Below, piece by piece: positions 14,325 through 32,245 of a stretch of DNA of 64,000 bases. Source of the DNA: Prosthecobacter vanneervenii (GTDB lineage: Bacteria > Verrucomicrobiota > Verrucomicrobiia > Verrucomicrobiales > Verrucomicrobiaceae); NCBI RefSeq assembly GCF_014203095.1, contig NZ_JACHIG010000007.1:62001-126000 (forward strand), in the 5' to 3' direction. The position numbers were made by a program, and so were the translations under genes. The notes beneath the pieces are model-generated. The model had not been told where the DNA came from, ran no database searches, and was given only the letters and a program-made list of their open reading frames with translations. Each line of letters opens with the position of its first letter. Positions within the stretch are counted from its first letter, which is position 1.

Positions 14325-14330
14325 GGCTCA

Positions 14331-14810
14331 TCAGTGGGCAGTCATTAACCGGCCTGTGCCAGTTCCAGTCGTACCCCCAGAAGGCACGGGAGACGCAGCA
14401 TCCTCCGGGCCGCAGATGGAGGTAATCTCATCTGCCAGAGCCTTGAGCCCCTGCTCCTTGGAGATGAATCCATGGACATCATGCCGGCTCAGCACCGGCA
14501 GCATGTCGGCCGCTGAGTGGCTGCTCAGAACGATGACTTTGACTTCTGGAGAGAGGAGAGAAGCGCTTTGCTCCAGCAGGTCGATAGCCGAGCCGTCTGG
14601 AAGGGTCATGTCCGCCACGACCACATTGATCCGGCGCGTCTTTAAAAGCGGCAGAGCGGCGGCCACGCAATCTGCCTCAAGCAGATCATATTCAGGCAGA
14701 TAAGCGCCCAAGGCGGCCCTGACCACATCACGATACATGTCATGATCCTCCACCAGCAGGATGATCCTGGAATTTCCTGAACGATTGGAATGCCAATTTG
14801 CCTGCTGCAT
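14331..14810 (-). CDS. Stand-alone receiver-domain response regulator
   Basis: This 159-residue protein is a single CheY-like receiver: the acidic cluster E21/D22 in 'ILLVEDHDMYRD', phospho-acceptor D67 in 'VVVADMTLPDG' and Lys118 in 'GFISKEQG'. No output domain follows, only a flexible Pro/Gly/Thr-rich tail. It lies immediately upstream of the large hybrid kinase (6-bp gap), so it is the natural phosphorelay partner. It is divergent from the 14893 kinase across an 82-bp shared promoter region. Confidence 0.88.
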   Translation of the reverse strand: MQQANWHSNRSGNSRIILLVEDHDMYRDVVRAALGAYLPEYDLLEADCVAAALPLLKTRRINVVVADMTLPDGSAIDLLEQSASLLSPEVKVIVLSSHSAADMLPVLSRHDVHGFISKEQGLKALADEITSICGPEDAASPVPSGGTTGTGTGRLMTAH

Positions 14811-14892
14811 GAATGCTCGTTAGTTTCTGAGTGTGTCTAAAATCCGCAGTAACATACAGCAAATCTGGCACGTGTAGTGTTGAAGGACGATA

Positions 14893-16128
14893 ATGAATAA
14901 TCATTTAGACCGAGCTAAATTTCATCAGCATGACGCCATGCGGCCGAGTTTTTCGTTTTTGGAAGGTACCGTCGAAGAGCGGATCGACTTTCTTGGGAGC
15001 ATGGGGCATGAACTGCGCAACCCGCTTGCGAACATGATTGCACAGGTTGAGACCCTGCTGGCGGGGGTGTACGGACCGCTGCAAAACACGCAGGAGAATG
15101 CCGTGGCGGCGATCAGGGACAGCACGCAGAGAATGCTGCGACTGGTGACGGATCTAGTGGATGTGGGCAGGATCGAGGCGGGAGTGACGCCGCTGACACC
15201 CATGCCATGCCTGGTGCGCGAGTGCTTTGAGAATGGCAAGGCCGAGGTGGAAGCACTGGCGCAGTCGCGATCCATCCAGGTGGTGGCAGATGTGCGGCCC
15301 AAGGATCTTGGGGTGGTTGCGGATGCACGGAGGCTGGAGCAGATCATCGCCGAACTGCTGGTTGCGGCGCTGCTGTCCATGAAAACGGGCGGGCTACTGA
15401 AGCTGGCCATCACGCATGAGCAGGGCGGGCTGGTGCTGCAGACGCAGTGCGGAGCCGGACAAGCAGCGGGGCATGACGGCCCAGAACAGGTCCTGGGACG
15501 TCTGGGAAAAATCCGCCCCATCGGGCTGGCGCTGCTGCAGAAACTGGTGCAGGTACATGGCGGAACTTTTGTACTGAATGAGATGACGGACCAGGATTTT
15601 GGAATGTGCATCCGCGTGCCCGTGAGCAGGTCTGGAGGGAGCATTGTGGAAGAGGTGGAGGCGGTGGCGCCACAAGCAGCGGCTGTGTCCGCCCACGCAG
15701 AGTCTGCGGCACCTCTGCCTGCACCTGCTCAGAGTTCGGCGGGCTGTCGTCAATCTTTGATTCTGATTGCTGATGACCAGCCGGCCTTGGTCGCTGTGAC
15801 GCGCAATTATTTTGAGAGCCTGGGATTTGAGGTGGTGACTGCCCAGGACGGAAGCGAGGCGGTGAAGCAGGCCTGTTTATTGCAGCCGGATCTCATCCTG
15901 ATGGATGTGCGGATGCCTGTCGTGGACGGGCTGAGCGCCATCCGGCAGATCCGTGCGTCCGAAGATCCCAAGACGCGCGACATTGCCATCGTGAGCCTTT
16001 CCGGCCATGCGACTGCGGCTGACAAGGAAAAGTGCCTGGCCGCCGGCGCCAGCGCCTATCTGAACAAGCCGTTTGGCATTCGCGAACTGGACCGGATCAT
16101 TTCGGAGTTCGTGCGCCCGGCAAGCTGA
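14893..16128 (+). CDS. Hybrid histidine kinase-like protein with eroded ATP site and intact receiver
   Basis: The protein has 411 residues. AAGGA lies 7 nt before the ATG, a clear ribosome site that fixes this start. A HisKA helix has His39 in 'GSMGHELRNPLANMIAQVE', a textbook H-box. The following ATPase-like region (about 105-245) lacks both N-box Asn residues ('IIAELLVAALLSM', with Glu154 and Ala158). It has no DxGxG aspartate ('QTQCGAGQAAG') and retains only a GLAL remnant. An Ala/Pro-rich linker (250-285) joins a complete receiver with D294/D295, D338 in 'LILMDVRMPVVDG' and K392. It probably accepts phosphate through His39 or D338 rather than from its own ATP site. That is inference. Confidence 0.82.
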   Translation: MNNHLDRAKFHQHDAMRPSFSFLEGTVEERIDFLGSMGHELRNPLANMIAQVETLLAGVYGPLQNTQENAVAAIRDSTQRMLRLVTDLVDVGRIEAGVTPLTPMPCLVRECFENGKAEVEALAQSRSIQVVADVRPKDLGVVADARRLEQIIAELLVAALLSMKTGGLLKLAITHEQGGLVLQTQCGAGQAAGHDGPEQVLGRLGKIRPIGLALLQKLVQVHGGTFVLNEMTDQDFGMCIRVPVSRSGGSIVEEVEAVAPQAAAVSAHAESAAPLPAPAQSSAGCRQSLILIADDQPALVAVTRNYFESLGFEVVTAQDGSEAVKQACLLQPDLILMDVRMPVVDGLSAIRQIRASEDPKTRDIAIVSLSGHATAADKEKCLAAGASAYLNKPFGIRELDRIISEFVRPAS

Positions 16129-16161
16129 GCGCGGAGGGACTGCTGCATGAGCCGACTGTGA

Positions 16162-16210
16162 TGCCGGAGACAAGACTCGAACCTGCACTTGTTTCCCGAC
16201 CAGATCCTAA
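16162..16210 (-). repeat. Remnant of the 3' half of tRNA-Leu(UAG), att-like
   Basis: Read on the minus strand, this holds the anticodon loop with TAG, the anticodon 3' stem, a variable arm, a TpsiC arm with GTTCGAGT and an acceptor strand ending CTCCGGCA. The 5' half of the tRNA is absent. It matches 29841-29889 with 3 mismatches in 49 bp and in the same orientation. Such 3'-half duplicates are typical of integration into tRNA genes. This copy is more decayed: the anticodon 5' stem no longer pairs well. Confidence 0.75.
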
Positions 16211-16291
16211 TCCCTGCATCAGCGGGAAGAAAGTCAGGCCTTGGAAACGGGCCTGCAACGGCTGGCCAAAAACCGGGCTCTGCGGATCAAT

Positions 16292-16312
16292 GGGGGACCA
16301 AGATGGTCCCCC
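16292..16312. terminator. Perfect hairpin between convergent genes
   Basis: GGGGGACCA-AGA-TGGTCCCCC is a 9-bp perfect stem with a 3-nt loop, between the stops of the kinase (16128, plus) and the dimethylformamidase-like gene (16337, minus). There is no T-tract, so it may be a bidirectional or repeat-type element. A related hairpin with a compensated base pair occurs at 40550-40568. Confidence 0.5.
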
Positions 16313-16336
16313 GCCAGCAGCGCACGTCGTGGATTG

Positions 16337-17896
16337 CTATGCCAGGACCTTATTCAAAAAGTTCCGGGTGATCTGCTGCACGCGCTCATCGGGGCCAAAC
16401 GGGCGAGACCAGTGTGACCAAGGCAACGTGTGGCCGGGCGGATGGCTGAGTCCCTGGCACCAGAAGATGGTTGCGGCATTGAAAATGAAGTTGCCTTTTG
16501 GTCCTGGGTAAACGGTGGCGGTGTAGTGCGAAGGCGTTTCTCCGCCGACCCACACAGGCCCTTCAGCAATGATTTCCAAGCCGGGGATCTCAGTCGCAGC
16601 GAGATTGTGATACTCCCAACCGACGAGGCCGGGAATGCGATCGCCTTTTTTCATCCCCGTGCCTTCGAAAATCCAGTGGCCGGGATTTGTCACGATCCAG
16701 TCGCCACCGCCATTGATGGGCCGTCCGTTGCGTGCGCCTATCAGCAGACCTTCGTCGGGGCCATGCTCCGGGAAGGGGCCGTTCTTTTCTTGACGGTCTT
16801 TCACATAGTCCTGCCCGCCGCCGTAGGGGCCGCCGCGGAACATGATGCGGTTTTCACGCCCGTCGAAGCCCGCGCGCATGGGCGTCACCCAGCATACCGC
16901 GTTGCCAGAGAGGAACATCAGATTCACACCCTCATCGCGCATCTTCTCGACACTGTGGAACTGGCGGATGTCCCAATACTCATCGTGGCCGACGCTGATG
17001 AATGTCCGGCACTTCAGGCCGCGATCTGGCGTAAGCATTTCGCTGTTGGAGCAATAGCTGACATCGTAGCCGTGCTGTTCCAGCCAGTAGGAGAGCGGCT
17101 GCTCAAAGGAGGTGAACTCGCCGGAGCCGACCGAGAGCGGGTCATTGACAATGCCGGTGTATTGCGACTGCCGCCCGTAAGGGCGGTCGAAACTCACATC
17201 GGCCCACGGGCCTTGGTTCCCCTTTGGATGCGTGTAGACTGAATAATGAGTGGGCCAGCGATTGTAGGCCTGCCAGGTGTTGTCCGAGCATTGAAACAGA
17301 ATGTTCGCAGGCCGCTCGTCGCGCACGATGAAGATGACGTAGGTTTGCCAATAGGGCTTGTCAGACTGCTCCGGCAGCGTGGTGAGCCTGCCAAGATAGA
17401 CGCCGCTGACCCAGTCTTCGGGAATGGCGAGTGTCGTGGTGGGTTCCCAGCGGCATTCGTGGAGGTCCTTTTCGCCCGGCTTTGGCATCGGCTGAGCCTT
17501 GCCATCGAAAGGCCCGAGCACTTTCATCAGCCGCGCTCCTTTGCCGCCGTAGTAACCGGTGCGGAAGATTTCGAGTGTGAACTTCGACTCAGGCGCTGTC
17601 GAGACCATGATGTCGATCGTCTCGCCCGCCTTTACACTCTGCCGCGAGCAGTAGCCCTCGATGAACGGCGAGCGAAAGCCGTCCGACTTGTCCAGCCGCA
17701 CACGGGAGAGCTGCCAGTCGAGGGTGCCCTCCCTGGCGTTCTCCTGGGCGATGACATTGCTCCGCGCAGACTGAGCGGCTGCATGCGCCGGCTCAGGTGC
17801 CCCTGCCAGCAGGCCGCCGCCGAGTGCGGTGGTGGCAGAGGTCTTCAAAAAGGCGCGGCGGGAAGAGGTGAAGTCGGGGTCCTTGTCAGTGCTCAT
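16337..17896 (-). CDS. N,N-dimethylformamidase large-subunit-like protein, Tat-exported
   Basis: This 519-residue protein has a twin-arginine leader ('SSRRAFLKTSATTALGGG') followed by an Ala-rich cleavage region. An N-terminal beta-sandwich-like part ('GYCSRQSVKAGETIDIMVST', 'IFRTGYYGG') precedes a catalytic-type domain with 'NTWQAYNRW', 'FISVGHDEYW' and 'LSGNAVCW'. These are motifs seen in the large subunit of N,N-dimethylformamidase and in related uncharacterised exported proteins. The known enzyme cleaves C-N bonds of small amides. The substrate here is unknown. It is the last gene of a minus-strand run of exported proteins, 48 bp after the DUF1501 gene. Confidence 0.8.
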   Translation of the reverse strand: MSTDKDPDFTSSRRAFLKTSATTALGGGLLAGAPEPAHAAAQSARSNVIAQENAREGTLDWQLSRVRLDKSDGFRSPFIEGYCSRQSVKAGETIDIMVSTAPESKFTLEIFRTGYYGGKGARLMKVLGPFDGKAQPMPKPGEKDLHECRWEPTTTLAIPEDWVSGVYLGRLTTLPEQSDKPYWQTYVIFIVRDERPANILFQCSDNTWQAYNRWPTHYSVYTHPKGNQGPWADVSFDRPYGRQSQYTGIVNDPLSVGSGEFTSFEQPLSYWLEQHGYDVSYCSNSEMLTPDRGLKCRTFISVGHDEYWDIRQFHSVEKMRDEGVNLMFLSGNAVCWVTPMRAGFDGRENRIMFRGGPYGGGQDYVKDRQEKNGPFPEHGPDEGLLIGARNGRPINGGGDWIVTNPGHWIFEGTGMKKGDRIPGLVGWEYHNLAATEIPGLEIIAEGPVWVGGETPSHYTATVYPGPKGNFIFNAATIFWCQGLSHPPGHTLPWSHWSRPFGPDERVQQITRNFLNKVLA

Positions 17897-17944
17897 GAGA
17901 GGGGAAGTTGTGCTGGAGGTCGTTGTTTAAGGTCAGGCATGGGC

Positions 17945-19381
17945 TCATGCACGGCGATAGCTCAGCTCGGGAATGAGCCGGCCATTCGTCACGATTGGCA
18001 CCGGGCGGCCGTTGAAGTCGTTGATCGTGGTCCTGGCGGAGTCGATCCCGAGGTGATGGTAGATCGTGGCGAGGAAATCGTGCGCACTGCACGGGCGCTC
18101 GATGACATCTTCGCCGCGCTTGTCAGTGGCGCCGATCACGCCGCCAGTCTGGATGCCGCCGCCTGCCCAGAGATTGGAGAAGGCACGCGGCCAGTGGTCG
18201 CGGCCTGGCTGCAGCGTGCCAGCGGGGCCGCTGGCATCTCCTGCGCCGGTGCTGCGGTCAAAGGTGATGCGCGGTGTGCGGCCAAACTCGCCGGTGACGA
18301 CTACCAGCACGCGTTTGTCGAGCCCGCGTGCATGAATATCCTCGATCAGCGCGGCCACGGCCTGATCGTAGTAGCCCATACGAAAGCGCAGTGCCTCAAA
18401 GATGTGATGATCCACCGCGTGATCGTCCCACACCTGGGTGCGTCCGCACAACGGCCCGTGCAGGCTGCTGGTGATGATCTCGACGCCGGCCTCCACCAGA
18501 CGCCGCGCCAGCAGGAGCTGCTGGCCCCAGCGGTTGCGACCGTAGCGGTCGCGCGTCTTGGCATCCTCATTACCGAGGTCAAAGGCATCGCGTGCCTCCG
18601 GTGCGGTGAGCAGCGAGGCGGCCTGCGCTTCAAACTCGTCCAGAGCCTGCAGCTCGTGCTGACGGTCAAACGCGCGCTCCAGGCGGTCGAGGCTCTTGCG
18701 CAACGCAATGCGGTCGCTGAGGCGTCGCGTCTCTGCGTCATCGGCAAGACCGATGTTGGGCACCTGAAACTGCGGACGGTTCGGGTCCTCGGTGACGGAG
18801 AAAGCGCTGAACGCATCGCCGAGATAAGCCGGGCCGCAGTAGGAGCCATTGATGGGATTGACGCTCGTGTAATTTGGCAGCGCATTCGTGCGCTGTCCTT
18901 CCTTCGAGCGCAAATAGTGTGCTACTGACATCCAATCAGGCAGGCGTGGCTGCGGTTTGTCCCGGGTGTCGGTGTCGCCAGAGAGCATCTGCATCGTGCC
19001 AGCGGGATGCCCGCCCGCCGTCTGATACATGGAGCGCAGCACGGTGAACTTGTCCGCGATCTTCGCCTGCAAAGGCATCAGCTCTGTGAAGCGCAGCCCG
19101 GGAACCTTTGTTGCGATCGTTTTGAACGGCCCGCGATACTCGCTGCTCGCATCCGGCTTGGGATCGTAGGTGTCAATATGCGACTGCCCGCCGGGCAGGA
19201 AGACAAAGATGACCGCCGTGCGTTCCGATTTTGGTTTGAGCGCATTCTGCGCACGCAGCCGCATCAATCCTGGCCAGCTCATGGAGGCCATGCCGCTAAG
19301 TCCGATCTGCATGAAGCTCCTGCGCGAGGTCAGCGGACCCGTGCAACGAATGCGTGGTGGTGTGGGAGGCTCCGAACTCAT
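17945..19381 (-). CDS. DUF1501 protein (sulfatase/alkaline-phosphatase-like fold), Tat-type leader
   Basis: This 478-residue protein starts with 'TSRRSFMQIGLSGMASMSWP', a twin-arginine type leader characteristic of DUF1501. The body shows the family pattern: 'VIFVFLPGGQSHIDTYDPKP', 'GGHPAGTMQMLSGD', 'VVTGEFGRTPRI' and 'GRDHWPRAFSNLWAGGG'. These are the metal-binding and fold-defining stretches of this alkaline-phosphatase-superfamily group. DUF1501 proteins are abundant in Planctomycetes and Verrucomicrobia, often near other degradation genes, and their activity is not established. Length is normal and no lesions are visible. Confidence 0.88.
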   Translation of the reverse strand: MSSEPPTPPRIRCTGPLTSRRSFMQIGLSGMASMSWPGLMRLRAQNALKPKSERTAVIFVFLPGGQSHIDTYDPKPDASSEYRGPFKTIATKVPGLRFTELMPLQAKIADKFTVLRSMYQTAGGHPAGTMQMLSGDTDTRDKPQPRLPDWMSVAHYLRSKEGQRTNALPNYTSVNPINGSYCGPAYLGDAFSAFSVTEDPNRPQFQVPNIGLADDAETRRLSDRIALRKSLDRLERAFDRQHELQALDEFEAQAASLLTAPEARDAFDLGNEDAKTRDRYGRNRWGQQLLLARRLVEAGVEIITSSLHGPLCGRTQVWDDHAVDHHIFEALRFRMGYYDQAVAALIEDIHARGLDKRVLVVVTGEFGRTPRITFDRSTGAGDASGPAGTLQPGRDHWPRAFSNLWAGGGIQTGGVIGATDKRGEDVIERPCSAHDFLATIYHHLGIDSARTTINDFNGRPVPIVTNGRLIPELSYRRA

Positions 19382-19462
19382 GGCTAGATCTACCTACGCA
19401 ACAACCATGCAGGATTCCGTTCGCAGATTAACAAACCTGGCACGGTGGTCGTAAAACAGGCC

Positions 19463-20872
19463 TCATGGCGCGGCGTGCACGCTCTGCAGCAGCTCCAGAG
19501 CTTTGGCGGTGATCTTGACAGACGCCTCGCGCTCGACGCGATTGGTGCCGAGCCATGTTTCGTAGCCGCCGAGGTCGTGCTGACGCGGTGTGGGGAGATA
19601 GCCGTTGCTGCCTGAAGCAAGCTCGATGGTGAAGGTGTCTTTGAAGGGGCTCTTGGCTTTGATCTCAAGCCCTGTTTCGGTGAAGACCTCAAAGGGAATG
19701 GACGTGATGCCGAGATCGCCGATGCGAAAGGCTTGAATGTAAGCCTGGATCGTGTCGGGCTTGGCTCTCTTCACTTCCATCACACGTTCGGCGTAGGGCT
19801 GTTCGAGGCGGTGCACAGGCGTGGCATCTTTTGGCTTGGCGAGTACAGCTTCTGCCCACTTCACCATCTCTGGAGTCGGACGGCGAACGGCGAGCTCCAG
19901 ATCGCTGGCGGCTGCTTGCAGGGGCACCCAGTCCTGATGCTTGAGGTTTTTGTGCACACGCAGCACCTCCTGCGCGAGGTCGCCTGCGACGACTTTGATC
20001 TTTTCATACGGCTTGTAATTCACCGCGGGGGTTTTGCCGCTGTAGTCGTTGCTGTTTACATCACCGCAGGGACCGTTGGGAAGGAGGCCAACGCACGGCG
20101 CTCCGAGAGACTGCTCGATGCGGCGGCAGAACTCGCCGAAATAATCTGCCGACAAGTCCTCGCGTGGCACGCCGCCGACATAGTGCAGCCAGTAATTTGC
20201 CATCAGTGCGATCTGGCGGCCATCAGTGGCCTGCAGGGAGAGGCAATAGACCTCGGGGTTCGTCGGGCCAGCGGGTCCTTCCAGACGCGGAATGAGCATA
20301 CTACTCGGATTCATCACAGCGCGGTCTTGTCCGCCAAAAGGATTGGGATTGGTGACACCTTCTTTCAGAATCCAGCGGCGGTTGCCGACCCACTGCGGCA
20401 GCTTGCCCGTGCCCCAGGCGATGCGGGCAGGTTCGAGGTTGTTCAGCGCGCGCTTCACGCCATCCACCACGCGGGAGATGACGAGGCTGCGGTAGTCGAA
20501 CCCTGCCTCTTTGTTGTTGATGGCGGACACGCTGGAGTGCGTGTGGGTGGCGGAGAACATCATGTGAGATGCCGGGATCCCCGTGTCAGCCTCCAGCTTC
20601 TTCCTGGCTTCGTCCCAGACATCACGTGCCAGATGAAGATTGTCCGCCACGGCAAAGACCAGCTTTGTCTTGCCGTCATCAAGCGCGAGACAGCGCACAT
20701 GCAGCTCGTCGTGCACCTGCTTTGAGATGGGCTGCGGAGCAAAGTTGCCCACGATCGTCATGCCGATTGGCGGAGTGATGTTGCTGGTGGCGGCACCGGC
20801 TTTGAAGATTTTGTCCTGTGCCGTGGTGACGATGGGGAGAAGGGCAAGGCAGATGAGGAGCGTGTTTTTCAT
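19463..20872 (-). CDS. Neutral/alkaline ceramidase-like secreted hydrolase
   Basis: The start at 20872 gives a clean signal peptide ('KNTLLICLALLPIVTTAQ'). A longer upstream reading would place it internally. The mature protein begins with 'FKAGAATSNITPPIGMTI', the usual opening of neutral-ceramidase N-terminal domains. It carries zinc-ligand-type motifs 'SATHTHSSVSA' and 'ANYWLHYVGG', then 'IPFEVFTETGLEIK' and 'SNGYLPTPRQHD'. At 469 residues it lacks the C-terminal immunoglobulin-like domain of canonical ceramidases. It may hydrolyse an amide-linked acyl chain, but many such Verrucomicrobia/Planctomycetes proteins have no known substrate. The start lies 16 bp after the propeller-like gene. 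Confidence 0.82.
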   Translation of the reverse strand: MKNTLLICLALLPIVTTAQDKIFKAGAATSNITPPIGMTIVGNFAPQPISKQVHDELHVRCLALDDGKTKLVFAVADNLHLARDVWDEARKKLEADTGIPASHMMFSATHTHSSVSAINNKEAGFDYRSLVISRVVDGVKRALNNLEPARIAWGTGKLPQWVGNRRWILKEGVTNPNPFGGQDRAVMNPSSMLIPRLEGPAGPTNPEVYCLSLQATDGRQIALMANYWLHYVGGVPREDLSADYFGEFCRRIEQSLGAPCVGLLPNGPCGDVNSNDYSGKTPAVNYKPYEKIKVVAGDLAQEVLRVHKNLKHQDWVPLQAAASDLELAVRRPTPEMVKWAEAVLAKPKDATPVHRLEQPYAERVMEVKRAKPDTIQAYIQAFRIGDLGITSIPFEVFTETGLEIKAKSPFKDTFTIELASGSNGYLPTPRQHDLGGYETWLGTNRVEREASVKITAKALELLQSVHAAP

Positions 20873-20888
20873 GGTTGAGTCAATGCGT

Positions 20889-21680
20889 TCAGGGCTTGTC
20901 GATGACCAGCCCGGCCTTTTCGTCGACGCGGGCAATGACGACGCGCGCCTCGTTGGCCTTGGTTTTGCCATCGTCGCCTTTGATGGCCGTGTTTTGGGCG
21001 ATGAGGAAACGACCGCCGCTGATCGGTGCGATGCCGACGGAGGCGTTGAAATCCCATTTGCCGGTGAACTGGAATTTTTCATCTGCCCGCAGCAGCACTG
21101 CGGGCTTGCCATAGCAGCCAAACCACCACGAGCCATTGGCATAGGCCACCGTCTGGATGCCCATGAGCGTGTAGCCGCTGGCGAGCACGTGGCGTTTTTG
21201 AAAGTGGAAACCCTCGTCGTATTCGTAGAGGTAGTTTTCGTTCACGCCGGGCGGCAGCCCGCCGATGACGATGAACTTTCCGTCGTGATGCTCCATGCCG
21301 CCCGCGCCGTGAACCAGTTCGGGCAGGGGGTGTTTCGCAAGCTCCGCGAGAGTGTCGGCATCATAGACATAGACCCACGAATCCGCCGCACCGGCAGGCT
21401 GGTTGAACTTTCCAAGGTTCGTCGCTACATAGACGCGGCCGTCGTGGTAGCAGAGATCTCCGTGATGATTGGCCACAGGCACTTTCTTGAGCACACGGCC
21501 GCTGGCGTCGGTCTTCACCAGCGCATCGGTCCAGCACCAGTAAATGCAGCCCTTGCCATCGGTGCAGATGCCCTGGAGATGGCGCGGGTAGCTGCCTTCG
21601 CAGGCGGTGGCATGAAAGTCATCAGCGGCACGAAGGCCGTGCAGGCTGAGAAGAAGGGAAACAAAAAGGATAAGCCTCAT
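20889..21680 (-). CDS. Secreted beta-propeller-like protein of unknown function
   Basis: With the start at 21680 this is 263 residues, beginning with the signal peptide 'MRLILFVSLLLSLHGLRA'. The body has repeats of the type 'GICTDGKGCIYWCWTDALVK', 'DLCYHDGRVYVATNLG', 'HHDGKFIVIGGL' and 'GGRFLIAQN', as in NHL/SMP-30-like propellers. Only four or five blades would fit. It lies between two ceramidase-like genes on the same strand, so a role in the same degradation process is likely. No catalytic residues can be assigned. Confidence 0.65.
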   Translation of the reverse strand: MRLILFVSLLLSLHGLRAADDFHATACEGSYPRHLQGICTDGKGCIYWCWTDALVKTDASGRVLKKVPVANHHGDLCYHDGRVYVATNLGKFNQPAGAADSWVYVYDADTLAELAKHPLPELVHGAGGMEHHDGKFIVIGGLPPGVNENYLYEYDEGFHFQKRHVLASGYTLMGIQTVAYANGSWWFGCYGKPAVLLRADEKFQFTGKWDFNASVGIAPISGGRFLIAQNTAIKGDDGKTKANEARVVIARVDEKAGLVIDKP

Positions 21681-21785
21681 GGGATTGGATATGGGATGGT
21701 GCACGCACCGGTTACGTGAAGAGGACGAGTGAATTGGAAATGGCGCGTGCGTGCTGCTCGGTTTCTGCTTCGTGGAGTCGTTCTC

Positions 21786-23237
21786 TCATTTGCTGGTCTC
21801 TTTTGCATCGGGTGCGGGCCAGAGGTCGTTGAAGGCCTTCACGGTTTCATCCACCAGCGCCTGGCCGCCTTCGGGGCCGACCCGGCTGCTTTGAATGATG
21901 GCGCTGTAGCTGCCTCCGGCCACGGCGCGGGGTGTCGGCAGGTAGCCGCCCGAGCCGGTCAGCTGAATGAGAAAGGTCTGCACTGCAGGACTACGGGCCT
22001 TCATCTGCACGCCGTAGTCGGTGAAGAGTTCAAACTCATTGGTGGCGATGGCCACATCTCCGAGGCGAAGGGCATGCAGCTCCATCTGGAAGACTCCGGC
22101 CTTCCCGGATTTCTCAGTTTCGTAGCGGTCCACCACACCTTGATTCCAAAGGTACTTCCATTGCTCCTTAGGGTCGTCCTTGTATTGCTCGACGGCTTTC
22201 TGCGCATCGGCCAGCTCCTTCTCCGTCACCTTTCGCCAGGGCAGGTCGATCTTCTTCGTCTGGTGCTGCAGCACCGCACCGGTCACCGGCTCCAGCTTCG
22301 CTCCTTCATAGGCCTCCTCCCAGCCACGCACGACACGGCGTGCGACTTCTTCCAGCCGTGTGAGGCCGCGAAGACGGCGCATGCGCTCATCCGCCGCCTT
22401 GCCATACATCGGGCGCGGCACCTGGTCTCCTCCGGCTCCGGTCCAGGCCAGGATGTGGAGATCCTTGCCATGACGCTCGCGTAGCTGGCGGCGTACCGGA
22501 TCCCAGAAGTCGGCGTGGATCACTTTGAGCCCCTCGACTTCCTGGGAAGGGCATGGGACATTCACCGCCGTGGCGATGAGCGTGTTGTTCAGATCCCAGA
22601 AGAACAGCACTTCGAGATTGTGATCCTCATATCCTTCGATGCCGCGAAACTCCGGCACGTTGGTGGGGCCGTACATTTTCGCGGTTCCGTCCGCGTAGGT
22701 CGCACGGCGGTTCTGAGCGATCACCGCCTGTCCCTGGCCCCAGCCTGCTTTGGCGGGCTTGCGCTGTTCCCAGCTTTGCGCCGCAGCTGCCACGATACGC
22801 TCCACCAGGAAGTCGGTGTATTCCATCGGCAGCATCACTTTTTTGCCCAGCAGGCTGTAGCGATCCCCCTTCATCGTCACCGGCGCGGTGTGAGTGTGCG
22901 TGGCATTGAGGACGAGCTTGTTGAGATCAAATCCGGGCAGCCTGTCCCTGGCCTTCTCGCGCACCAGCTCGATGAGCCCTTCGCGGATGGCCACGATGTC
23001 ACAGGAAACCATGATGGCCTGATCCAGCACCCGGTCTCCCTCGCGCGATTCCAGGCCCAGTGCGGTGGCAAAGATATGCGTCTCGGGTTTTTCAGAGATG
23101 CGCACGTGCATTTGTCCGTCGAGTGCCACGGGACGATCTGGCGTGATGTCCACCGTGGTCGCGCCCACATGAAGATCTGATGCGGAGGTAGAAGCGGCAA
23201 GGCTTGCGATGCAAAGAGAGAACAGGAAAAGACGCAT
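21786..23237 (-). CDS. Neutral/alkaline ceramidase-like secreted hydrolase, second paralogue
   Basis: The start at 23237 gives a signal peptide ('MRLFLFSLCIASLAASTSAS') and a 483-residue protein. It opens with 'HVGATTVDITPDRPVALDGQ' and contains 'LVLNATHTHTAP', matching the first histidine pair of neutral ceramidases. It also has 'ATNEFELFTDYGVQMK' and 'GSGGYLPTPRAV'. At the position of the second zinc-ligand His it has 'NVPCPSQEVEG', so a Cys/Pro replaces His. That suggests altered metal binding. The start is preceded by a perfect GGGGTA-A-TACCCC palindrome. It heads the five-gene minus-strand run and is divergent from the alpha/beta hydrolase gene. Confidence 0.8.
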   Translation of the reverse strand: MRLFLFSLCIASLAASTSASDLHVGATTVDITPDRPVALDGQMHVRISEKPETHIFATALGLESREGDRVLDQAIMVSCDIVAIREGLIELVREKARDRLPGFDLNKLVLNATHTHTAPVTMKGDRYSLLGKKVMLPMEYTDFLVERIVAAAAQSWEQRKPAKAGWGQGQAVIAQNRRATYADGTAKMYGPTNVPEFRGIEGYEDHNLEVLFFWDLNNTLIATAVNVPCPSQEVEGLKVIHADFWDPVRRQLRERHGKDLHILAWTGAGGDQVPRPMYGKAADERMRRLRGLTRLEEVARRVVRGWEEAYEGAKLEPVTGAVLQHQTKKIDLPWRKVTEKELADAQKAVEQYKDDPKEQWKYLWNQGVVDRYETEKSGKAGVFQMELHALRLGDVAIATNEFELFTDYGVQMKARSPAVQTFLIQLTGSGGYLPTPRAVAGGSYSAIIQSSRVGPEGGQALVDETVKAFNDLWPAPDAKETSK

Positions 23238-23238
23238 T

Positions 23239-23251
23239 GGGGTAATACCCC
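23239..23251. promoter_or_regulatory. 13-bp palindrome next to start codon
   Basis: GGGGTAATACCCC is a perfect 6+1+6 palindrome one base upstream of the minus-strand ceramidase-like start, inside the 158-bp divergent promoter region shared with the alpha/beta hydrolase. It is a candidate operator or leader hairpin. Confidence 0.35.
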
Positions 23252-23395
23252 TCACCCACAAGATTCTTGTCATGGTTTTTGCTCTGAGGCCGATACCACA
23301 ATCGGCTTTGGTTCCAATAGACACGATAAGCGTCACCAACAGAGTGCGTAGAGTCATGCCTCGTCTGACAAGACACGCCCTCCACTACCCTACTG

Positions 23396-25408
23396 ATGAG
23401 CCTCATTGTCTCCCGAATCATCATCGCCGTTTTCTTCATCGGCCTGGCTCATGCGGAAGTCAGCCGCATCGAGATCACCGGACACTCGCCGTTTGCTGCG
23501 GGCAAGGTCTTTGGAGCCGTAGGCGCCTACGAGCGTCTTGAAGGGCGGATGTATTTTGAAACGGACCCACGCAATGTGGCCAATGAGCGCATCAGCGACC
23601 TTCAGCGGGCACCGCGCAACGCCAGTGGCCGTGTGGAGAGCTGGGCGGACTTCTTTCTGCTGAAACCGATCGACGCAACGAAGGGCAACGGCGTGCTTCT
23701 GTATGACGTGAACAATCGCGGCAACATGCTCGCCCTTTGGACCTTCAACGATGGCGAGCGCACGAACGATCCGAAGTCCGAGTCGCATGCGGGCCATGGC
23801 TTCCTCATGAAGCACGGCTTTTCCGTGCTGTGGTGCGGCTGGAACGGCGAGGTGCAGGCCGATGACACACGGCGTCTGCTCTGCGGACTGCCGGTGGCCA
23901 CCGAGTGCGGTCGGACGATCACTGGGCGGGCGCATCTGGAGATCAGCACCACGGAAAAAGTTTTCAGCAGGGCCTTTTCATGGAGTCCCTGGGGCATCGG
24001 CGCGGCTTTTCCTTCCGTGAGCCTCGACAATGCGGACGCGACGCTCACGATGCGCCCGCAGCGCGATGCTGAAGGCATCGAGATTCCTCACAGCGAGTGG
24101 GCGTTTGGACGCATGGAGGATGGGAAATTCATCCCGGATGCCACGCATGTTTATGTGAAAGCCGGTCTGCGCCCCGGCTGGCTGTACGATCTCGTGTACA
24201 CGGCGAAAGAGCCTCGCGTGACCGGGCTCGGTCTCACGGCCCTGCGAGACTGCGCGGCGTTTTTCCGTCACGGCGCGGCGAAGGAAAATCCGCTGGCAGG
24301 CGCGGTGCAAAAAGCCTGCGTGTTCGGCATCTCCCAGTCGGGCCGCGTCATTCATCACTTCCTGCATGAGGGGCTGAACACCGACGAGCAGGGCCGCGCG
24401 GTCTTCGACGGCGCATTGATCCATGTCGCGGGCTCCGGTAAGGGCATGTTCAACCATCGTTTCCGCATGAGCACGGAGTTCGGCACGCAGCACGAAGGGC
24501 ATCTTTCCGGCAGCGAATTCTTCCCGCTGGCCCCGCTGCCGCAGACGGATCCCATCACGGGCGCATCAGGAGACTCGCTGGCCCGTTCCCGAAAGTCCGG
24601 CCACACACCGCGTCTGCTTTTCACACAAAGCTCCACCGAGTACTGGAGCCGCGCCGCCTCGCTGCTGCACACCGATGTGGAAGGGAAAAGCGATCTCACG
24701 CTGCCCGACGATGTGCGCGTGTACCTCGTGGCCGGGGCGCAGCATCTCGGCAAGAGCGACGGCACCACCGGCATCTGCCAGCAGCCGCGCAACACGCTCG
24801 ATGATCGTGGCCCCGTCCTGCGGGCCATGCTGCTGCACCTCGTCGATTGGGTGAAGCATGGCAAAACACCGCCGCCAAGCCGATATCCGCGCATGGAAGA
24901 TCACACGCTGGTGAGCTTTGATGCATGGAAGGCGCAGTTCCCCAAGATCCCGGGCTGCCAACTGCCCACGCAGGCCTACCAGCCACCGAGGCTTGATTTC
25001 GGACCGCGTTTTCACAGCGAAGGCATCGCCGACATCATCCCGCCCAAAGTCGGAAAGCCGTTTCGCACGCTGCTGCCCGCCGTGAATGCCGATGGCAATG
25101 AAACAAGTGGCATCGTCCTCCCAGAAGTCGCCGTGCCTCGTGGCACCTACACTGGCTGGAACCTCCGCTCGCCGCAGGCAGGTGCTGAAACGATGCTCTC
25201 GTCGCTTGACGGCATGTTCCTCCCTTTCGCCAAAACCAAAGCCGAACGCGAAAAGACCGGCGACCCGCGTCTCTCACTGGAAGAACGCTACCCGACACGA
25301 GAAGCCTACCTTGCCCGTCTCAAGAAAGCGGCGGAGAAGCTCCAGGAAGAGGGCTTTTTGCTGGAGGAGGACGTGGCGAGGATCATCGAGCGGGCTTCAG
25401 CGCAGTAG
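23396..25408 (+). CDS. Secreted alpha/beta hydrolase domain protein
   Basis: This 670-residue protein has an N-terminal hydrophobic signal ('SLIVSRIIIAVFFIGLAHA'). A nucleophile elbow 'FGISQSGRVIHHFL' marks the probable catalytic Ser. 'AGAQHLGKSDG' lies near where a catalytic His is expected, and the C-terminal 'PRGTYTGWNLRSPQAG' is typical of the Abhydrolase_10-type proteins common in Verrucomicrobia and Bryobacter relatives. The family has esterase-like members but few characterised ones. It is divergent from the ceramidase-like operon, and its stop lies 25 bp from that of the convergent PHP-like gene. The start has no Shine-Dalgarno. Confidence 0.8.
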   Translation: MSLIVSRIIIAVFFIGLAHAEVSRIEITGHSPFAAGKVFGAVGAYERLEGRMYFETDPRNVANERISDLQRAPRNASGRVESWADFFLLKPIDATKGNGVLLYDVNNRGNMLALWTFNDGERTNDPKSESHAGHGFLMKHGFSVLWCGWNGEVQADDTRRLLCGLPVATECGRTITGRAHLEISTTEKVFSRAFSWSPWGIGAAFPSVSLDNADATLTMRPQRDAEGIEIPHSEWAFGRMEDGKFIPDATHVYVKAGLRPGWLYDLVYTAKEPRVTGLGLTALRDCAAFFRHGAAKENPLAGAVQKACVFGISQSGRVIHHFLHEGLNTDEQGRAVFDGALIHVAGSGKGMFNHRFRMSTEFGTQHEGHLSGSEFFPLAPLPQTDPITGASGDSLARSRKSGHTPRLLFTQSSTEYWSRAASLLHTDVEGKSDLTLPDDVRVYLVAGAQHLGKSDGTTGICQQPRNTLDDRGPVLRAMLLHLVDWVKHGKTPPPSRYPRMEDHTLVSFDAWKAQFPKIPGCQLPTQAYQPPRLDFGPRFHSEGIADIIPPKVGKPFRTLLPAVNADGNETSGIVLPEVAVPRGTYTGWNLRSPQAGAETMLSSLDGMFLPFAKTKAEREKTGDPRLSLEERYPTREAYLARLKKAAEKLQEEGFLLEEDVARIIERASAQ

Positions 25409-25433
25409 CCGTCTCGTTGCTTCCAGAAAGAAC

Positions 25434-27005
25434 TTACACCCGGCGCAGCGGCTGGGAAAAGATCATGTCCACAATCGGTATTGGCGTGCGCAGGGCCGGA
25501 GCGGTGCTGGCAAAGGCGGGGCCGAGCAGGGCCTTCTGGTCATGCAGCAGCGAGATGTCATGCACGCTCATGCCACGCAGCATGTCTGCGGTGAGCGGCT
25601 GGCCGCGCTGATGGGTCTCCGGATAAGCGAAGGCTTCCACCCGCACAAATGCCGCTTCGAGCCGGCCGCTGCTATCTCGTTTCAGCGGAAACTCCGCCTG
25701 TGCGCCATCCACGATGCTGGCGATGCCTTGATCCGTGATGAAGCGGATCTGCAGCTTGGGGCGTTTGGCGTCGTTGCCAGCCACGGTGACGTGGAGGGTG
25801 TCGTTTTGCACGACGATGTGGCTGAAGCGAAAGCCGCTGCGATCATACGGCGCCACCACTTCTCCCGCTTCGCTCGCTGCGAGCGAGGCCACGGAGCCAA
25901 AGAACGTTCCCTGGCGATACGCACGCAGCGCGGCAGATTCGCGACTGTCAGCAGGCATGGCAGCGAGCTTTGGCACGAGCAGCACATTCCGGCCACGGCC
26001 GTAAGTGTTGTGGTCTTTGACAAAGAAGCCCCAGCAGCGCCGCCCGGTGCGCAGGATCTCATCCCAAAGCTGGTAGAAGTGCAGAGTGGGCGCGCCGCTG
26101 TCGTCATAGAAGCCACGGCTGGAACCAAAGCCGGAGGTCAGCTGATTCCACACCTCAATGCCCAGCACCCGGGGGTCAAAGTCCAGCATCGGCAGATAGT
26201 CCGCCAGCTTTCCGGTGGGATGATTCAGCGTCATGCCTCCGCCATCGGAGTATTGCAGATTGTCGAAGGCTTCACGGAAGACATCCCGCCACGGGCGGTT
26301 CGTGCCCTGCATGAGACGGTACTGCGTCACTGACACGGCAGCGGCATCAAACTCGAGCTTGGCGTCGATGCTGTCCCTCGTGGCACGCAGATAGATCGTG
26401 TGGCTGCCGGACGGGAGTTTGCGCTCATGCACCGATCCCTTGTCCGCGAAGCCATTGCGAAAATCACACTCATGCGCGCCATCGAGGCTGAGCGTGGCCA
26501 TGGCTTTGGCATCTTTGGCGGCGAGCCGCACGTCCAGCCGGTAAACGCCTATCCAGGGCTTTGAGGCATCGAACACATTCAGTTTTTCAAAGCGGTGAGA
26601 AACAGGCGACGAGGCACATTTTGCAGCGCTCACCGAACTGCCGTAACCCGTGGCGAGCAGGCTCCCCAGCGCATTGGCATGCAGGCCGGTGTCCGTGTAG
26701 GAGTGATGCTCCGCATTGGGCGCGGCGATGAGTTGAGGATGCTTCGCTGCATATTCCGCTGGCAGCGGATAGGTCGGCGCGGAGGGGTAGTAGTTGCTGA
26801 AGGCAAAATGGCCGTAGCCCATGCCGAGGAAGCCATCGCGCGAGGCATCGTTCTGCCCCTGGTGCTGATGCGACATCGAGTGCAGGCACTCCCAGGAGTC
26901 CCAATCCACCGCCGCATACGGATTTTCCAGCTCACGACCCGCTCCCACGCTCCACGAGGTGGCGGGCATGGCGGCGAGAGTGGCGAGGAGCTTGCGGCGG
27001 TTCAT
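25434..27005 (-). CDS. PHP-superfamily-like metallohydrolase, exported
   Basis: The protein has 523 residues. The leader 'MNRRKLLATLAAMPATSWSV' resembles a Tat or Sec signal. The PHP-like pattern is 'HSMSHQHQG' (metal-binding His pair), 'MTLNHPTGK', 'GIEVWNQ' and the closing 'WDEILRTGRRCWGFFVKDHN', where PHP domains carry a final Asp-His. A beta-sandwich-like insert (about 145-240) and a C-terminal beta domain surround it. PHP domains hydrolyse phosphoesters or related bonds using metals. The substrate is unknown. The opposite end of the gene faces the Gfo/Idh gene across a 96-bp divergent promoter region. Confidence 0.65.
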   Translation of the reverse strand: MNRRKLLATLAAMPATSWSVGAGRELENPYAAVDWDSWECLHSMSHQHQGQNDASRDGFLGMGYGHFAFSNYYPSAPTYPLPAEYAAKHPQLIAAPNAEHHSYTDTGLHANALGSLLATGYGSSVSAAKCASSPVSHRFEKLNVFDASKPWIGVYRLDVRLAAKDAKAMATLSLDGAHECDFRNGFADKGSVHERKLPSGSHTIYLRATRDSIDAKLEFDAAAVSVTQYRLMQGTNRPWRDVFREAFDNLQYSDGGGMTLNHPTGKLADYLPMLDFDPRVLGIEVWNQLTSGFGSSRGFYDDSGAPTLHFYQLWDEILRTGRRCWGFFVKDHNTYGRGRNVLLVPKLAAMPADSRESAALRAYRQGTFFGSVASLAASEAGEVVAPYDRSGFRFSHIVVQNDTLHVTVAGNDAKRPKLQIRFITDQGIASIVDGAQAEFPLKRDSSGRLEAAFVRVEAFAYPETHQRGQPLTADMLRGMSVHDISLLHDQKALLGPAFASTAPALRTPIPIVDMIFSQPLRRV

Positions 27006-27101
27006 CCATGCAAGTCGGCGGCGGCACTACAAACCTTTCATCTGTCATCGGCGGCAACACGTCAGAAGAATGTCGCGCAGGACGGCGTATTGCATCACCG
27101 C

Positions 27102-28505
27102 ATGAATCCTGCTCCGAGCACCTCCCGCCGACATTTCCTCAAGACCACCGCCGCTGCAGTGACAGCATTCAACATCGTTCCCCGGCATGTTCTGGGCGGG
27201 CCGCGGTTTGTGCCGCCGAGCGAAAAGGTGAACGTGGCCATCATCGGGACCGGTGGGCAGGGTCGCACTAATGTACGGAATCTCCTGCCGCTTGAGGATT
27301 GCCAGATCATCGCCGTGGCAGATCCGGCAGAGTCGTTCAGTCTTGAAAATTTTTACTTCAAAGGCATGGGCGGCCGCCTGCCGGTGAAGGCGGAGATCGA
27401 GAAGCACTACGCCACCAAGACACCGAACTTCCGCTGCGCAGACTACATCGACTTCCGCGAGATGCTTGAGAAGGAGAAAAGCATCGACGCCGTGCTCATT
27501 GCCACGCCAGACCATCTGCACGCCTACTGCTCGGTCATCGCCATGCGGGCCGGAAAGCACGTCTATTGCGAGAAGCCGCTCACGCACAACATCTGGGAGG
27601 CACGCCACGTGGCGAAGGTGGCAGCAGAGACCGGCGTGGCCACCCAGCTCGGCAGCCAGGGGCATTCGTCTCTCGGCACACGCGAGACGATCGAGTACAT
27701 CCAGGACGGCGCCATCGGCGCGGTGAAGGAGATCCATGTGTGGGTGGGCGCAAAGCGCTGGAATCCCACCCTCGCCGGAAAGCCCACCGACACACCACCA
27801 GTGCCTGCGGGCCTGAACTGGGACCTGTGGCTGGGCCCGCGCCAGGAGCGGCCGTTTCATCCGGCCTACTTCCCCGTGGCGTGGCGTGATTTCTGGGACT
27901 TTGGTTGCACAGGCATCGGCGACTTCGCCTGCCACGACATGAACACTGCCGTGCGCGCTTTTGATCTGCCGGTGCCCTCACGTATCGAGGCGCACGCAGC
28001 AGGTTTGATGACGAGCGACATCGCTGGGCATGGCGCGCTCATTTATTACACCTTCCCCGCAGCGGGCTCGCGGCCGGAGATCCGCATGACCTGGTATGAT
28101 GGCGGCATGATGCCGCCCACGCCCGAGGCGCTGGGAGGTTTCCCACTGCCAAAACGCGGCTGCCTTTTCATCGGCGAGAAAGGTGTGATCCAGTGCGATG
28201 GCGGCGGCGGACCTCCACGTCTCTTCCCCGAAAAGCGACGCATGGAATACCAGAAGCCCGCGCCACGGCTGAAACGCTCCAATGGCCATCATCGCGACTG
28301 GATCGATGCATGCAAAGGCGGCGAGCCCGCGACGAGTCCCTTTGCCTATGCTGCCCACCTCACGGAGATCGCGTTGCTGGGCGTGCTCTCGCTCCGTGCG
28401 CAAAAGCCCATCGAGTGGGACGCCGCAGCGATGAAGGCCAAAGGCCTGCCTGCCGCAGACGCCTTCACCAAAGAACAATACCGCAAAGGCTGGGAGATTG
28501 TCTAA
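27102..28505 (+). CDS. Gfo/Idh/MocA-family oxidoreductase, Tat-exported
   Basis: The start at 27102 places a twin-arginine leader ('TSRRHFLKTTAAAVTAFN') at the N-terminus. The open frame extends further upstream, but without that logic. The 467-residue protein has a Rossmann motif 'VNVAIIGTGGQGRTNVRNLL', the 'ATPDHLHAYCSVIAMRAGKH' segment, and the family signature 'VYCEKPLTHN' with the conserved Lys. Exported members of this family with bacterial-type C-terminal extensions are typical of Verrucomicrobia and Planctomycetes. They usually act on sugars or cyclitols with NAD(P). The GNAT gene begins 3 bp after its stop, so they are translationally coupled. Confidence 0.9.
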   Translation: MNPAPSTSRRHFLKTTAAAVTAFNIVPRHVLGGPRFVPPSEKVNVAIIGTGGQGRTNVRNLLPLEDCQIIAVADPAESFSLENFYFKGMGGRLPVKAEIEKHYATKTPNFRCADYIDFREMLEKEKSIDAVLIATPDHLHAYCSVIAMRAGKHVYCEKPLTHNIWEARHVAKVAAETGVATQLGSQGHSSLGTRETIEYIQDGAIGAVKEIHVWVGAKRWNPTLAGKPTDTPPVPAGLNWDLWLGPRQERPFHPAYFPVAWRDFWDFGCTGIGDFACHDMNTAVRAFDLPVPSRIEAHAAGLMTSDIAGHGALIYYTFPAAGSRPEIRMTWYDGGMMPPTPEALGGFPLPKRGCLFIGEKGVIQCDGGGGPPRLFPEKRRMEYQKPAPRLKRSNGHHRDWIDACKGGEPATSPFAYAAHLTEIALLGVLSLRAQKPIEWDAAAMKAKGLPAADAFTKEQYRKGWEIV

Positions 28506-28508
28506 GCC

Positions 28509-29444
28509 ATGAGCGAGCACATTGCCTTCACGGCCCTCACCGCATCCGACCGCGAACCCATCGCCCGCCTTCTGCACCGGGCGCTGGTGCACTGGTATGA
28601 AAGTCGCCTCGGCCAGGGCTCTCGCTTTGGCGGAAGCCATGAGCCCTTCACCCTCTTTCCGGACGTCTATGAGGCGCTCGACCCCGGCGAATGCGTCACT
28701 GCCCGCACAGCCAGCGGCGAGATCGTCGGCGTGTGCTTCTCGCATGAGCGTGAAACGCATGTCTCTGTGGGCATCGTCGCCACCGCGCCAGATGCTGGGG
28801 GGCGTGGGATCGCGAAGAGGATGATGTCGCTCGTCCTGGACAAGGCGAAACGCCTTGGCAAGCCCGCACGGCTTGTTTCGAGCCTGCTGAACCTCGACTC
28901 CTTCTCGCTCTACACGCGGCTCGGATTCGTCCCCGGGGCCATGTATCAAGATTTGCTCATCACCGTTCCCGAAACCGGCCTGGCCGCCGCCGCGCCTGCG
29001 GGCATCGCACATGTGCGTGAAGCTGTTTTGGCCGATGCGCCGCGAATCTCCGACTTCGAGTACTCTCAGCAGGGCATTCGTCGCGAAAAGGACTTCACAT
29101 TTTTCATTCGCAACGAAGTCGGTGCCTGGCGTGTGCTCGTTTCCGAGGCCGCAGATGGCAGCGTGAACGGCTTCCTCGCCATGAGTGTGCACCCATCGTT
29201 CACCATGATCGGTCCTGGTGTCGCCAGCGATGAGACAACCGCCATCGTCTTGCTCTGGCGCGCTCTCGACAGCCTGCGTGGTCAGACGCTCGTCTTCCTC
29301 GCGCCCTGCGCAGCGTCCTCCCTCGTGCGCACTGCTTACTCCTGGGGTGCTCGGAATGTGGAGCTGCATGTCGCGCAATCAACTGCTCCTGTCGCTGGTG
29401 CGAAAGGCATCGTCTTTCCAACCTTCATGCCGGAGACGGCTTGA
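28509..29444 (+). CDS. Tandem GNAT-fold acetyltransferase
   Basis: The protein has 311 residues with two GNAT folds. The N-terminal one is complete, with the acetyl-CoA pyrophosphate loop in 'VATAPDAGGRGIAKRMM' and the C-terminal 'SLYTRLGFVPGAM'. The second (about 160-305) has 'ASDETTAIVLLWRALDSLRG' and lacks a clear Gly-rich loop, so it is probably non-catalytic. It is cytoplasmic, although its coupled neighbour is exported. The acceptor substrate is unknown. Confidence 0.8.
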   Translation: MSEHIAFTALTASDREPIARLLHRALVHWYESRLGQGSRFGGSHEPFTLFPDVYEALDPGECVTARTASGEIVGVCFSHERETHVSVGIVATAPDAGGRGIAKRMMSLVLDKAKRLGKPARLVSSLLNLDSFSLYTRLGFVPGAMYQDLLITVPETGLAAAAPAGIAHVREAVLADAPRISDFEYSQQGIRREKDFTFFIRNEVGAWRVLVSEAADGSVNGFLAMSVHPSFTMIGPGVASDETTAIVLLWRALDSLRGQTLVFLAPCAASSLVRTAYSWGARNVELHVAQSTAPVAGAKGIVFPTFMPETA

Positions 29445-29840
29445 GGTCCTGGCTGCGTATCGAAAGAAATCTCATCTGAGTGGCTGAGATGCTCAGGAAC
29501 TTCGTATAAATCAGAGATGAGTTGAGCAGATCGTTGACTCGTCGCGTCATGGGACGGCCTTCATGATCCGGCGCAAAGATCTAGCCTCGATTGATGAGGG
29601 GCGAATAGTGGGTTCGTCGTGGCAGGTATGGGGACTGGAAACGCCGGGGATAAAGACGACCGCTACAAATATGATAACGTCAAAGCAGGGTGAGTTTGCA
29701 GTTCACCTCGTGGGGCAGGCCGTAAATTGAGATGTCAAAAAGGGAAACTAGCCATGAAAACGCCTCTTTGTGCTGCTCCGCCAAAAGTGGCCGGGTAAAT
29801 ATTTCCCCGCCCCTGAAAATTGTCATTTCTCCTTCGTAAG
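29445..29840. other. Intergenic region at the putative island edge
   Basis: No gene is well supported on either strand apart from the doubtful small frame at 29680-29826. Base composition is less GC-rich than in the preceding genes. The region ends at the tRNA-Leu remnant. Confidence 0.5.
29680..29826 (-). CDS. Possible 48-residue small protein
   Basis: A frame starts 14 bp outside the tRNA remnant and runs away from it. AAGGAG lies upstream of the ATG, but only 2 nt away, which is closer than normal. The peptide opens 'MTIFRGGEIFTRPLLAEQHK' and has a hydrophobic middle. There is no family resemblance, and it may be a chance frame. Confidence 0.22.
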   Translation of the reverse strand: MTIFRGGEIFTRPLLAEQHKEAFSWLVSLFDISIYGLPHEVNCKLTLL

Positions 29841-29889
29841 TGCCGGAGACAGGACTCGAACCTGCACTTGTTTCCAAACCAGATCCTAA
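29841..29889 (-). repeat. Remnant of the 3' half of tRNA-Leu(UAG), att site beside integrase
   Basis: On the minus strand AGA-CTTAGGA-TCT forms an anticodon arm with TAG in the loop. It is followed by a variable arm, a TpsiC arm (GCAGG-TTCGAGT-CCTGT) and the acceptor end CTCCGGCA. The 5' half is missing: homology to a tRNA stops just before the anticodon arm. It lies 43 bp from the recombinase reading frame. It matches 16162-16210 at 46 of 49 positions. Confidence 0.82.
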
Positions 29890-29932
29890 GTCTCGTTGTT
29901 GCGGGTTTCGCCAAGTTTGCTAATGTTCGCTT

Positions 29933-32197: not shown

Positions 32198-32245
32198 TGA
32201 ATAGCAATTCGCCTGCGAGCGAATTGGAGGAACTTTGAGGGTCTT

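Follow-up and report, generated by a model that had tools for sequence, protein, structure and literature searches.

The locus considered here raises the question of how two 3′ halves of one tRNA gene came to bracket 13.7 kb of DNA in the genome of Prosthecobacter vanneervenii, with a tyrosine integrase gene beginning just beyond the second of them. Both lie in a stretch of 64,000 nucleotides (the window; positions 62,001 to 126,000 of contig NZ_JACHIG010000007.1, here C7) of a genome of 6.66 Mb in 33 contigs that is 97% complete. Other contigs are likewise numbered with C and the genomes used for comparison with G, and positions outside the window are given on the contig or as window-equivalents. 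Comparison of the sequences indicates that the region is very probably a two-layer array, built by successive site-specific integrations into a single tRNA-Leu(UAG) gene: an older block of 13.6 kb (block 1) and a newer element of 71 kb that runs past the window. The features on which this reading depends are the following.

14893–16128, plus strand: histidine kinase/response regulator gene, the last chromosomal gene left of the islands (Pfam HisKA, Response_reg; orthologue directly after the intact tRNA-Leu in G002).
16159–16210, minus strand: remnant A, 3′ half of tRNA-Leu(UAG) with TCA in place of the former CCA; it marks the left end of block 1 (48/52 positions shared with the intact tRNA of G002, 46/49 with its own).
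16211–29840, no strand assigned: block 1, putative older island of 13.6 kb without an integrase, resembling a cis-mobilizable element (CIME); absent between tRNA and kinase gene in G002.
29602–29840, minus strand: putative decayed tRNA-side arm of the older element, left of remnant B (alignment to the arm beyond the intact tRNA).
29841–29889, minus strand: remnant B, 3′ half of tRNA-Leu(UAG), left end of the newer element (0/49 mismatches; 67 bp identical).
29841–64000, no strand assigned: part of the newer 71-kb element inside the window; the element ends at the intact tRNA-Leu(UAG), C7:162795–162877 (tRNA copies, arm repeat, G002 comparison, 67-bp identity).
29933–31387, plus strand: tyrosine integrase of the newer element (PF00589, E 3.4e-10; relative with 89% identity beside a tRNA-Leu remnant in G027).
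30020–30042, minus strand: 23-bp tandem arm repeat TTGGCCACTTCTTGGCCACTTTT, inside the integrase gene; other copy at window-equivalent 100715–100737.

Remnants A (16162–16210) and B (29841–29889) are identical at 46 of 49 positions and, read as tRNA, both lie on the minus strand. A preliminary description made from the window alone had reported this count and orientation, together with a TAG anticodon loop and a missing 5′ tRNA half, and all of it was borne out. Upon comparison with the intact gene, each remnant was identified as the 3′ half of tRNA-Leu(UAG), comprising anticodon loop, variable arm, T arm and 3′ acceptor strand; ARAGORN found no complete tRNA in the window, and an Rfam scan of the window returned nothing. 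Chance or a tRNA-like coincidence is ruled out, as none of 100 dinucleotide-preserving shuffles of the window contained a match to the 49-bp segment at up to 3 mismatches.

When the whole genome was searched with the 25-base 3′ end of the tRNA (up to 3 mismatches), it was found at three places, namely A, B and C7:162796–162820, all on the minus strand. The third belongs to the intact tRNA-Leu(UAG) gene (C7:162795–162877, window-equivalent 100795–100877), 36.8 kb to the right of the window. The gene therefore lies where it had been anticipated, further right and on the same strand as the remnants, and not to the left in an incompatible orientation. Against this gene, remnant A has 3 mismatches in 49 positions and remnant B has none. 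The identity between B and the intact locus extends over 67 bp (29827–29893), of which 4 bp precede the 49 and 14 bp lie past the tRNA end.

Relatives were surveyed by searching 56 genomes for the 49-mer at up to 3 mismatches; 35 of them are of the same genus, and both counts include the subject genome. The 49-mer is present in 24 of the 56, with one copy in 22, two in G027 and three in the subject genome. In G002, a genome of the same genus, the intact tRNA-Leu with its CCA adjoins the orthologue of the histidine kinase gene 14893–16128, and on the opposite side of the tRNA lie the same genes as flank the intact gene in the subject genome. Aligned base by base with G002, A agrees over the CCA position and the tRNA 3′ half (48/52), and the match ends at the anticodon loop; the genome's own intact gene matches G002 across the entire tRNA and further (182/205). 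On this sequence comparison, the G002 locus is the empty site that the preliminary description had proposed to look for. Since the intact tRNA there adjoins the kinase gene that adjoins A here, everything between A and the intact gene, 84.6 kb in all, has been inserted at one tRNA gene relative to G002. The empty site in G002 stands for this insertion as a whole; on the newer element by itself, the only such evidence is the parallel pair of G029 and G027 described below.

In G004, G008, G011 and G032 the tRNA lies 1.4–2.6 kb from a gene found at window −6105 to −4678 in the subject genome. An insertion reaching from the tRNA to window −4.7 kb, as these four genomes suggested, was replaced once G002 had placed the border at A. 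A cluster of sensor-kinase and response-regulator genes (window −4500 to 16128) is common to the near clade and is missing between tRNA-Leu and the neighbour gene in the same four genomes.

The most fitting reading of the DNA between B and the intact gene is a single element of 71 kb. TTGGCCACTTCTTGGCCACTTTT occurs exactly at both of its ends, the second copy about 60 bp beyond the intact tRNA, and no third copy exists in the surrounding 141 kb when up to 5 mismatches are allowed; none of 100 shuffles of the window contained the repeat. Because it is found only at both ends within 141 kb, B and the intact gene can be regarded as the ends of one element, and the repeats would be arm-type sites of the integrase. 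The integrase gene, with its frame intact, is the only PF00589 match on contig C7. The interval has the make-up of a tRNA island, with an intact tRNA at one end, a 3′ fragment in the same orientation at the other and a tyrosine integrase between them. The objection that it is not one element, as it has dnaN-like and cysteine-synthase-like genes, was rejected on three grounds: the clamp is a paralogue of accessory type, of which C2 and C1 carry further copies and C3 a distant, core-like match; the encapsulin shell gene was found in 3 of the 34 genomes searched, subject genome included; and the repeats join both ends of the interval.

If block 1 was already in place when the newer element entered, the DNA left of B is expected to be an element arm and not chromosome, and arm-like DNA is what was found. 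The 261 bp left of B aligned to the arm beyond the intact tRNA with a score of 145, while 300 simple shuffles gave a mean of 26.9 (standard deviation 4.8, maximum 50). For the control, the chromosome left of A against the same arm, the score was 28 (shuffles 28.1). The two aligned arms, one left of B and the other beyond the intact tRNA, match in only 177 of 270 columns; on this count they would come from related elements and not from a recent copy. The repeat left of B is still visible in part only, by eye.

Block 1 has attachment (att) sites at both ends, as a CIME does (A on one side, B and the arm left of it on the other); seen as the derivative of an element, it has the tRNA-side arm, and an integrase-side arm at A was not found. 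Its genes (DMFA2_C, DUF1501, ceramidase-like, Abhydrolase_10, Gfo/Idh/MocA and GNAT) look metabolic from their families. No integration or transfer genes were recognised in it by a PF00589 search and by Pfam scans of the larger open reading frames (ORFs), and it has no genes of the clamp, ligase and nuclease module described below. We take block 1 to be an older, decayed, CIME-like island, which would have decayed from a full element. A case in G012 supports, without proving, the view of block 1 as possible cargo of such elements: DNA of window 19463–29494 recurs in pieces at C15:19464–31729 with 90.8–92.0% identity, and adjoins a DUF932 fragment (72 amino acids, 54%) to the left of the G012 element.

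A parallel case is provided by G029 and G027. In G029, a 30.4-kb block lies directly after the intact tRNA and ends at the histidine-kinase orthologue. G027 carries the same block (main pieces 80–85% DNA identity) after a tRNA-Leu remnant, the integrase beside the remnant being 89% identical to that of the window, and TTGGCCACTTCTTGGCCACTTTT is exact both beside the integrase-side remnant and beside the intact tRNA. By this pair, elements of one kind sit on different older blocks in two species, on block 1 in the subject genome and on the other block in G027. G027 was dropped as a fully linked element, since the tRNA and the remnant stand on separate contigs there. DNA that was found in 8 of 8 genomes tested, the subject genome included, lies about 48 kb past the G027 tRNA. 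The placing of the two ends on separate contigs would reflect a rearrangement or a misassembly.

The course of events that we propose would begin with the entry of a first element into the tRNA gene, with the crossover within the shared segment from the anticodon loop onward. The 3′ half of the tRNA would have been rebuilt by the DNA that came in, and the host's own 3′ half (A) would have ended far to the left, beside the histidine kinase gene. The first element would then have lost its integrase and its replication module, remaining as the CIME-like block 1 with a recognisable arm at the tRNA side only. Later on, the related 71-kb element with its intact integrase frame would have entered the rebuilt gene, presumably through the action of this integrase, and rebuilt the 3′ half again; the 3′ half that stood there before would have been displaced to become remnant B, with the old arm adjoining it on the left. 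Serial entry is favoured because A has 3/49 mismatches and a CCA that is now TCA, B has 0/49, and the G027/G029 pair offers a parallel. Part of what distinguishes A may be old variation of the host.

Several observations weigh against this course. Block 1 is without an integrase (no PF00589 match), and no integrase-side arm above chance was detected at its A end (25 against 23.7; 22 against 23.3). In G027, where the element ends are on C33 and C64, tRNA and remnant are not on one contig. Four stretches of block-1 DNA (80–82% identity, two of them inverted) follow an intact CCA-bearing tRNA-Leu in G026, and no remnant was found there at up to 14/49 mismatches within the roughly 30 kb examined after tRNA-Leu. 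G026 thus comes near to the finding that the preliminary description had named as adverse, block-1 genes in the same place without the remnants, although its block-1 order is broken and its contig ends short of the flanking gene. The lack of an integrase and of an arm at A would be accounted for if block 1 were other DNA between the remnants, such as chromosomal genes brought there by recombination, and only the 71-kb element were a true integration. Relatives of block-1 genes are indeed found elsewhere in other genomes (for gene 23396–25408, in 12 of the 34 genomes searched, subject genome included), no tRNA was seen in the stretches examined around such relatives from G008, G009, G011 and G016, and G026 has this DNA after a tRNA without a remnant. 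The tRNA-side end of block 1 nevertheless resembles an element arm, the tRNA 3′ half stands at both its ends and the empty site of G002 lacks it, and we consider this explanation very improbable.

Block 1 and the 71-kb element might also have been stacked beforehand in another cell, arriving as one composite of 84.6 kb by a single integration. Transfer of CIME-element tandems has been described for other systems, within what PMC5704250 relates of them, and in G012 block-1 DNA also adjoins an element of a related subfamily. The mismatches of A to the intact gene, of which B has none, speak against a single arrival, but A is host-derived and might differ for that reason; the element of G027 sits on a different older block, which is present alone in G029, so stepwise stacking does happen in the genus. 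Arrival as a composite is, in our judgement, unlikely. That the three tRNA copies arose by segmental duplication, or by homologous recombination between repeats and without the integrase, is barely credible. Related element copies able to recombine do exist in the genome (the module on C2, with 91.6% DNA identity), but the limited agreement between the arm at B and that of the intact gene (177/270 columns) argues against a recent duplication, the shared part is a tRNA 3′ half with its arm, an integrase gene and paired repeats stand at the ends, and no long shared flanks were seen around the copies. Successive integration remains our preferred reading. The scheme put forward in the preliminary description, an older block at 16.2–29.8 kb and a newer integrase element, holds in this form with the arm-like DNA left of B and the mismatch counts of A and B behind it; it is limited in that the newer element, at 71 kb, extends well beyond the window, an integrase is missing from the older block, and a small probability stays with composite arrival.

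The mechanism as such is already known, to the extent that it is set out for tRNA-targeting islands (PMC4383910) and for CIME accretion (PMC5704250). According to the Islander definition of islands with a tRNA-targeting tyrosine integrase, as far as PMC4383910 details it, the fragment starts at the anticodon. The newer element shares with that type the intact tRNA, the displaced 3′ fragment in the same orientation and the integrase between them; different here are the two fragments for one tRNA and the outer block without an integrase. By the rule stated in PMC4383910 each member of a tandem array has its own integrase and fragment, and the array described here would not count as tandem since its outer block has no integrase. 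In CIME and tandem accretion, as portrayed in PMC5704250 (and by Pavlovic et al., 2004, cited there), a decayed element likewise retains its att sites, loses its integration genes and is followed by a second element at the tRNA end. Those systems are integrative and conjugative elements (ICEs) or integrative and mobilizable elements (IMEs) with conjugation genes, whereas none were recognised here in Pfam scans.

The gene list of the newer element holds 42 genes, 37 from a simple gene finder and 5 ORFs missed by it. Pfam scans covered 41 of them, two in part, and one ORF of 82 amino acids was left out. Within the window, the genes beyond the integrase are these.

31418–37516, plus strand: integrase-end ORFs 31418–32197, 32343–34340 (winged helix), 34498–36057 and 36074–37516 (Pfam and other family scans).
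39784–64000, no strand assigned: cargo, with an Rrf2 regulator, a giant DUF3739 protein (45717–57008), a porin, TonB, ExbD and ExbB (family scans); the cargo runs on past the window.

The winged-helix protein has weak matches to phage replication initiators, and the other integrase-end ORFs are without a family; relatives of ORF 34498–36057 are on G012:C15, G013:C86 and G008:C4. At the tRNA end, a module (window-equivalent 93842–100615) encodes DUF932, a sliding-clamp paralogue, an ATP-dependent DNA ligase with WGR, a PD-(D/E)XK nuclease and a 200-amino-acid protein. Further cargo includes a ShlB-type transporter with the DUF3739 cluster, an NMT1-type ABC transporter and PSCyt/DUF1501 genes. 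Two giant proteins of surface type are present, one of 3763 amino acids with DUF3739 and one of 3132 amino acids with PATR repeats (C7:132932–142330). DNA resembling the 44–64 kb cargo occurs elsewhere in many genomes, so this cargo is not unique to the element; a 90% copy lies in the subject genome itself (C1:272655–275573, ExbB end).

An encapsulin operon (C7:148170–152363) encodes a family-2A shell, a cysteine desulfurase, a rhodanese and a hexapeptide transferase, and is followed by a pyridoxal-phosphate enzyme of the cysteine-synthase kind. The cysteine desulfurase matches the encapsulin-cargo model below the cut-off. A family-2A encapsulin with a cysteine desulfurase is also found on a mobile replicon in Synechococcus elongatus, in the portion of PMC8049743 dealing with the sulfur-regulated srpI plasmid; in the present case, the element with the operon is integrated in the chromosome. 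The newer element is a member of a family of mobile elements that has been little described, and this sulfur-storage operon is part of its cargo. As the remnants give exact borders, 71 kb of genes, with the encapsulin/cysteine-desulfurase operon, the giant surface proteins and the extra clamp and ligase among them, can be assigned to a putatively mobile element and not to the chromosome.

Among the 41 scanned genes, Pfam recognised no relaxase or conjugation (type IV secretion) families, as would mark an ICE or IME, and no virion families (capsid, portal, terminase, tail), as would mark a prophage. For 10 element proteins compared with PHROGs, the named matches were replication and integration families. 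PADLOC, run on 10 proteins, gave only Cas4-like matches (the nuclease) and type-XIII-candidate matches (the WGR part of the ligase), which we take as domain resemblance. Outside sources yielded one ligase match at 30% among phages, 39 plasmid records with distant clamps, and one weak locus among viral contigs.

Related elements were found in the same genome and in relatives. A second element of the subject genome (C1:92494–125086) follows the same plan, which speaks for the proposed course of events: an intact tRNA-Leu(CAA), a repeat, an integrase, another repeat and a tRNA remnant, which is alike at 54 of 55 positions; it has its own pair of tandem arm repeats, and inside it the clamp/ligase module lies in the opposite orientation. 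The G012 element has an integrase with 57% identity and its own repeat pair, GTGTGCACTTTGTGTGCACTTTT, twice in a 110-kb contig (at 37870 and 95507), adjoining two copies of what appears by eye to be the 3′ half of another tRNA. The clamp/ligase/nuclease module recurs in both of these elements, after the intact tRNA-Leu of G027, beside tRNA-Tyr in G013 and, also beside tRNA-Tyr, on C2 (C2:78876–85913, the copy with 91.6% DNA identity). At the far end of the C2 copy, no tRNA-Tyr remnant was found in the 100 kb examined at up to 13/48 mismatches, and C2 has no PF00589 match.

We suggest tentatively, at somewhat less than even probability, that Prosthecobacter harbours an undescribed family of large integrative elements with one layout, several tRNA targets, a tendency to stack, gene clusters as cargo and, when excised, replication with their own clamp and ligase. 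The layout would be an intact tRNA, an arm with two 11-bp repeats, variable cargo, the integrase, a matching arm repeat and a tRNA remnant; in most members, the tRNA end would also hold a kit made up of a sliding-clamp paralogue, a WGR-type ATP-dependent DNA ligase, a Cas4-like nuclease and DUF932. The targets in such a family would be tRNA-Leu(UAG), tRNA-Leu(CAA) and, probably, tRNA-Tyr. Among the papers listed by searches of the open-licence literature, none was seen to describe elements of this sort in Prosthecobacter. The empty site in G002 and the parallel case point to tRNA-Leu as a stacking site in the genus.

The three bases after intact tRNA-Leu(UAG) genes were compared in 24 cases: CCA in 13, CTT in 9, the subject genome among them, and CCC and CTG in one each. 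The encoded CCA seems to be replaced on integration by this family of elements, by CTT in the subject genome. Where it is overwritten, addition of CCA to the tRNA should fall to the enzyme, and CTT in place of CCA is a footprint that can be used for searches.

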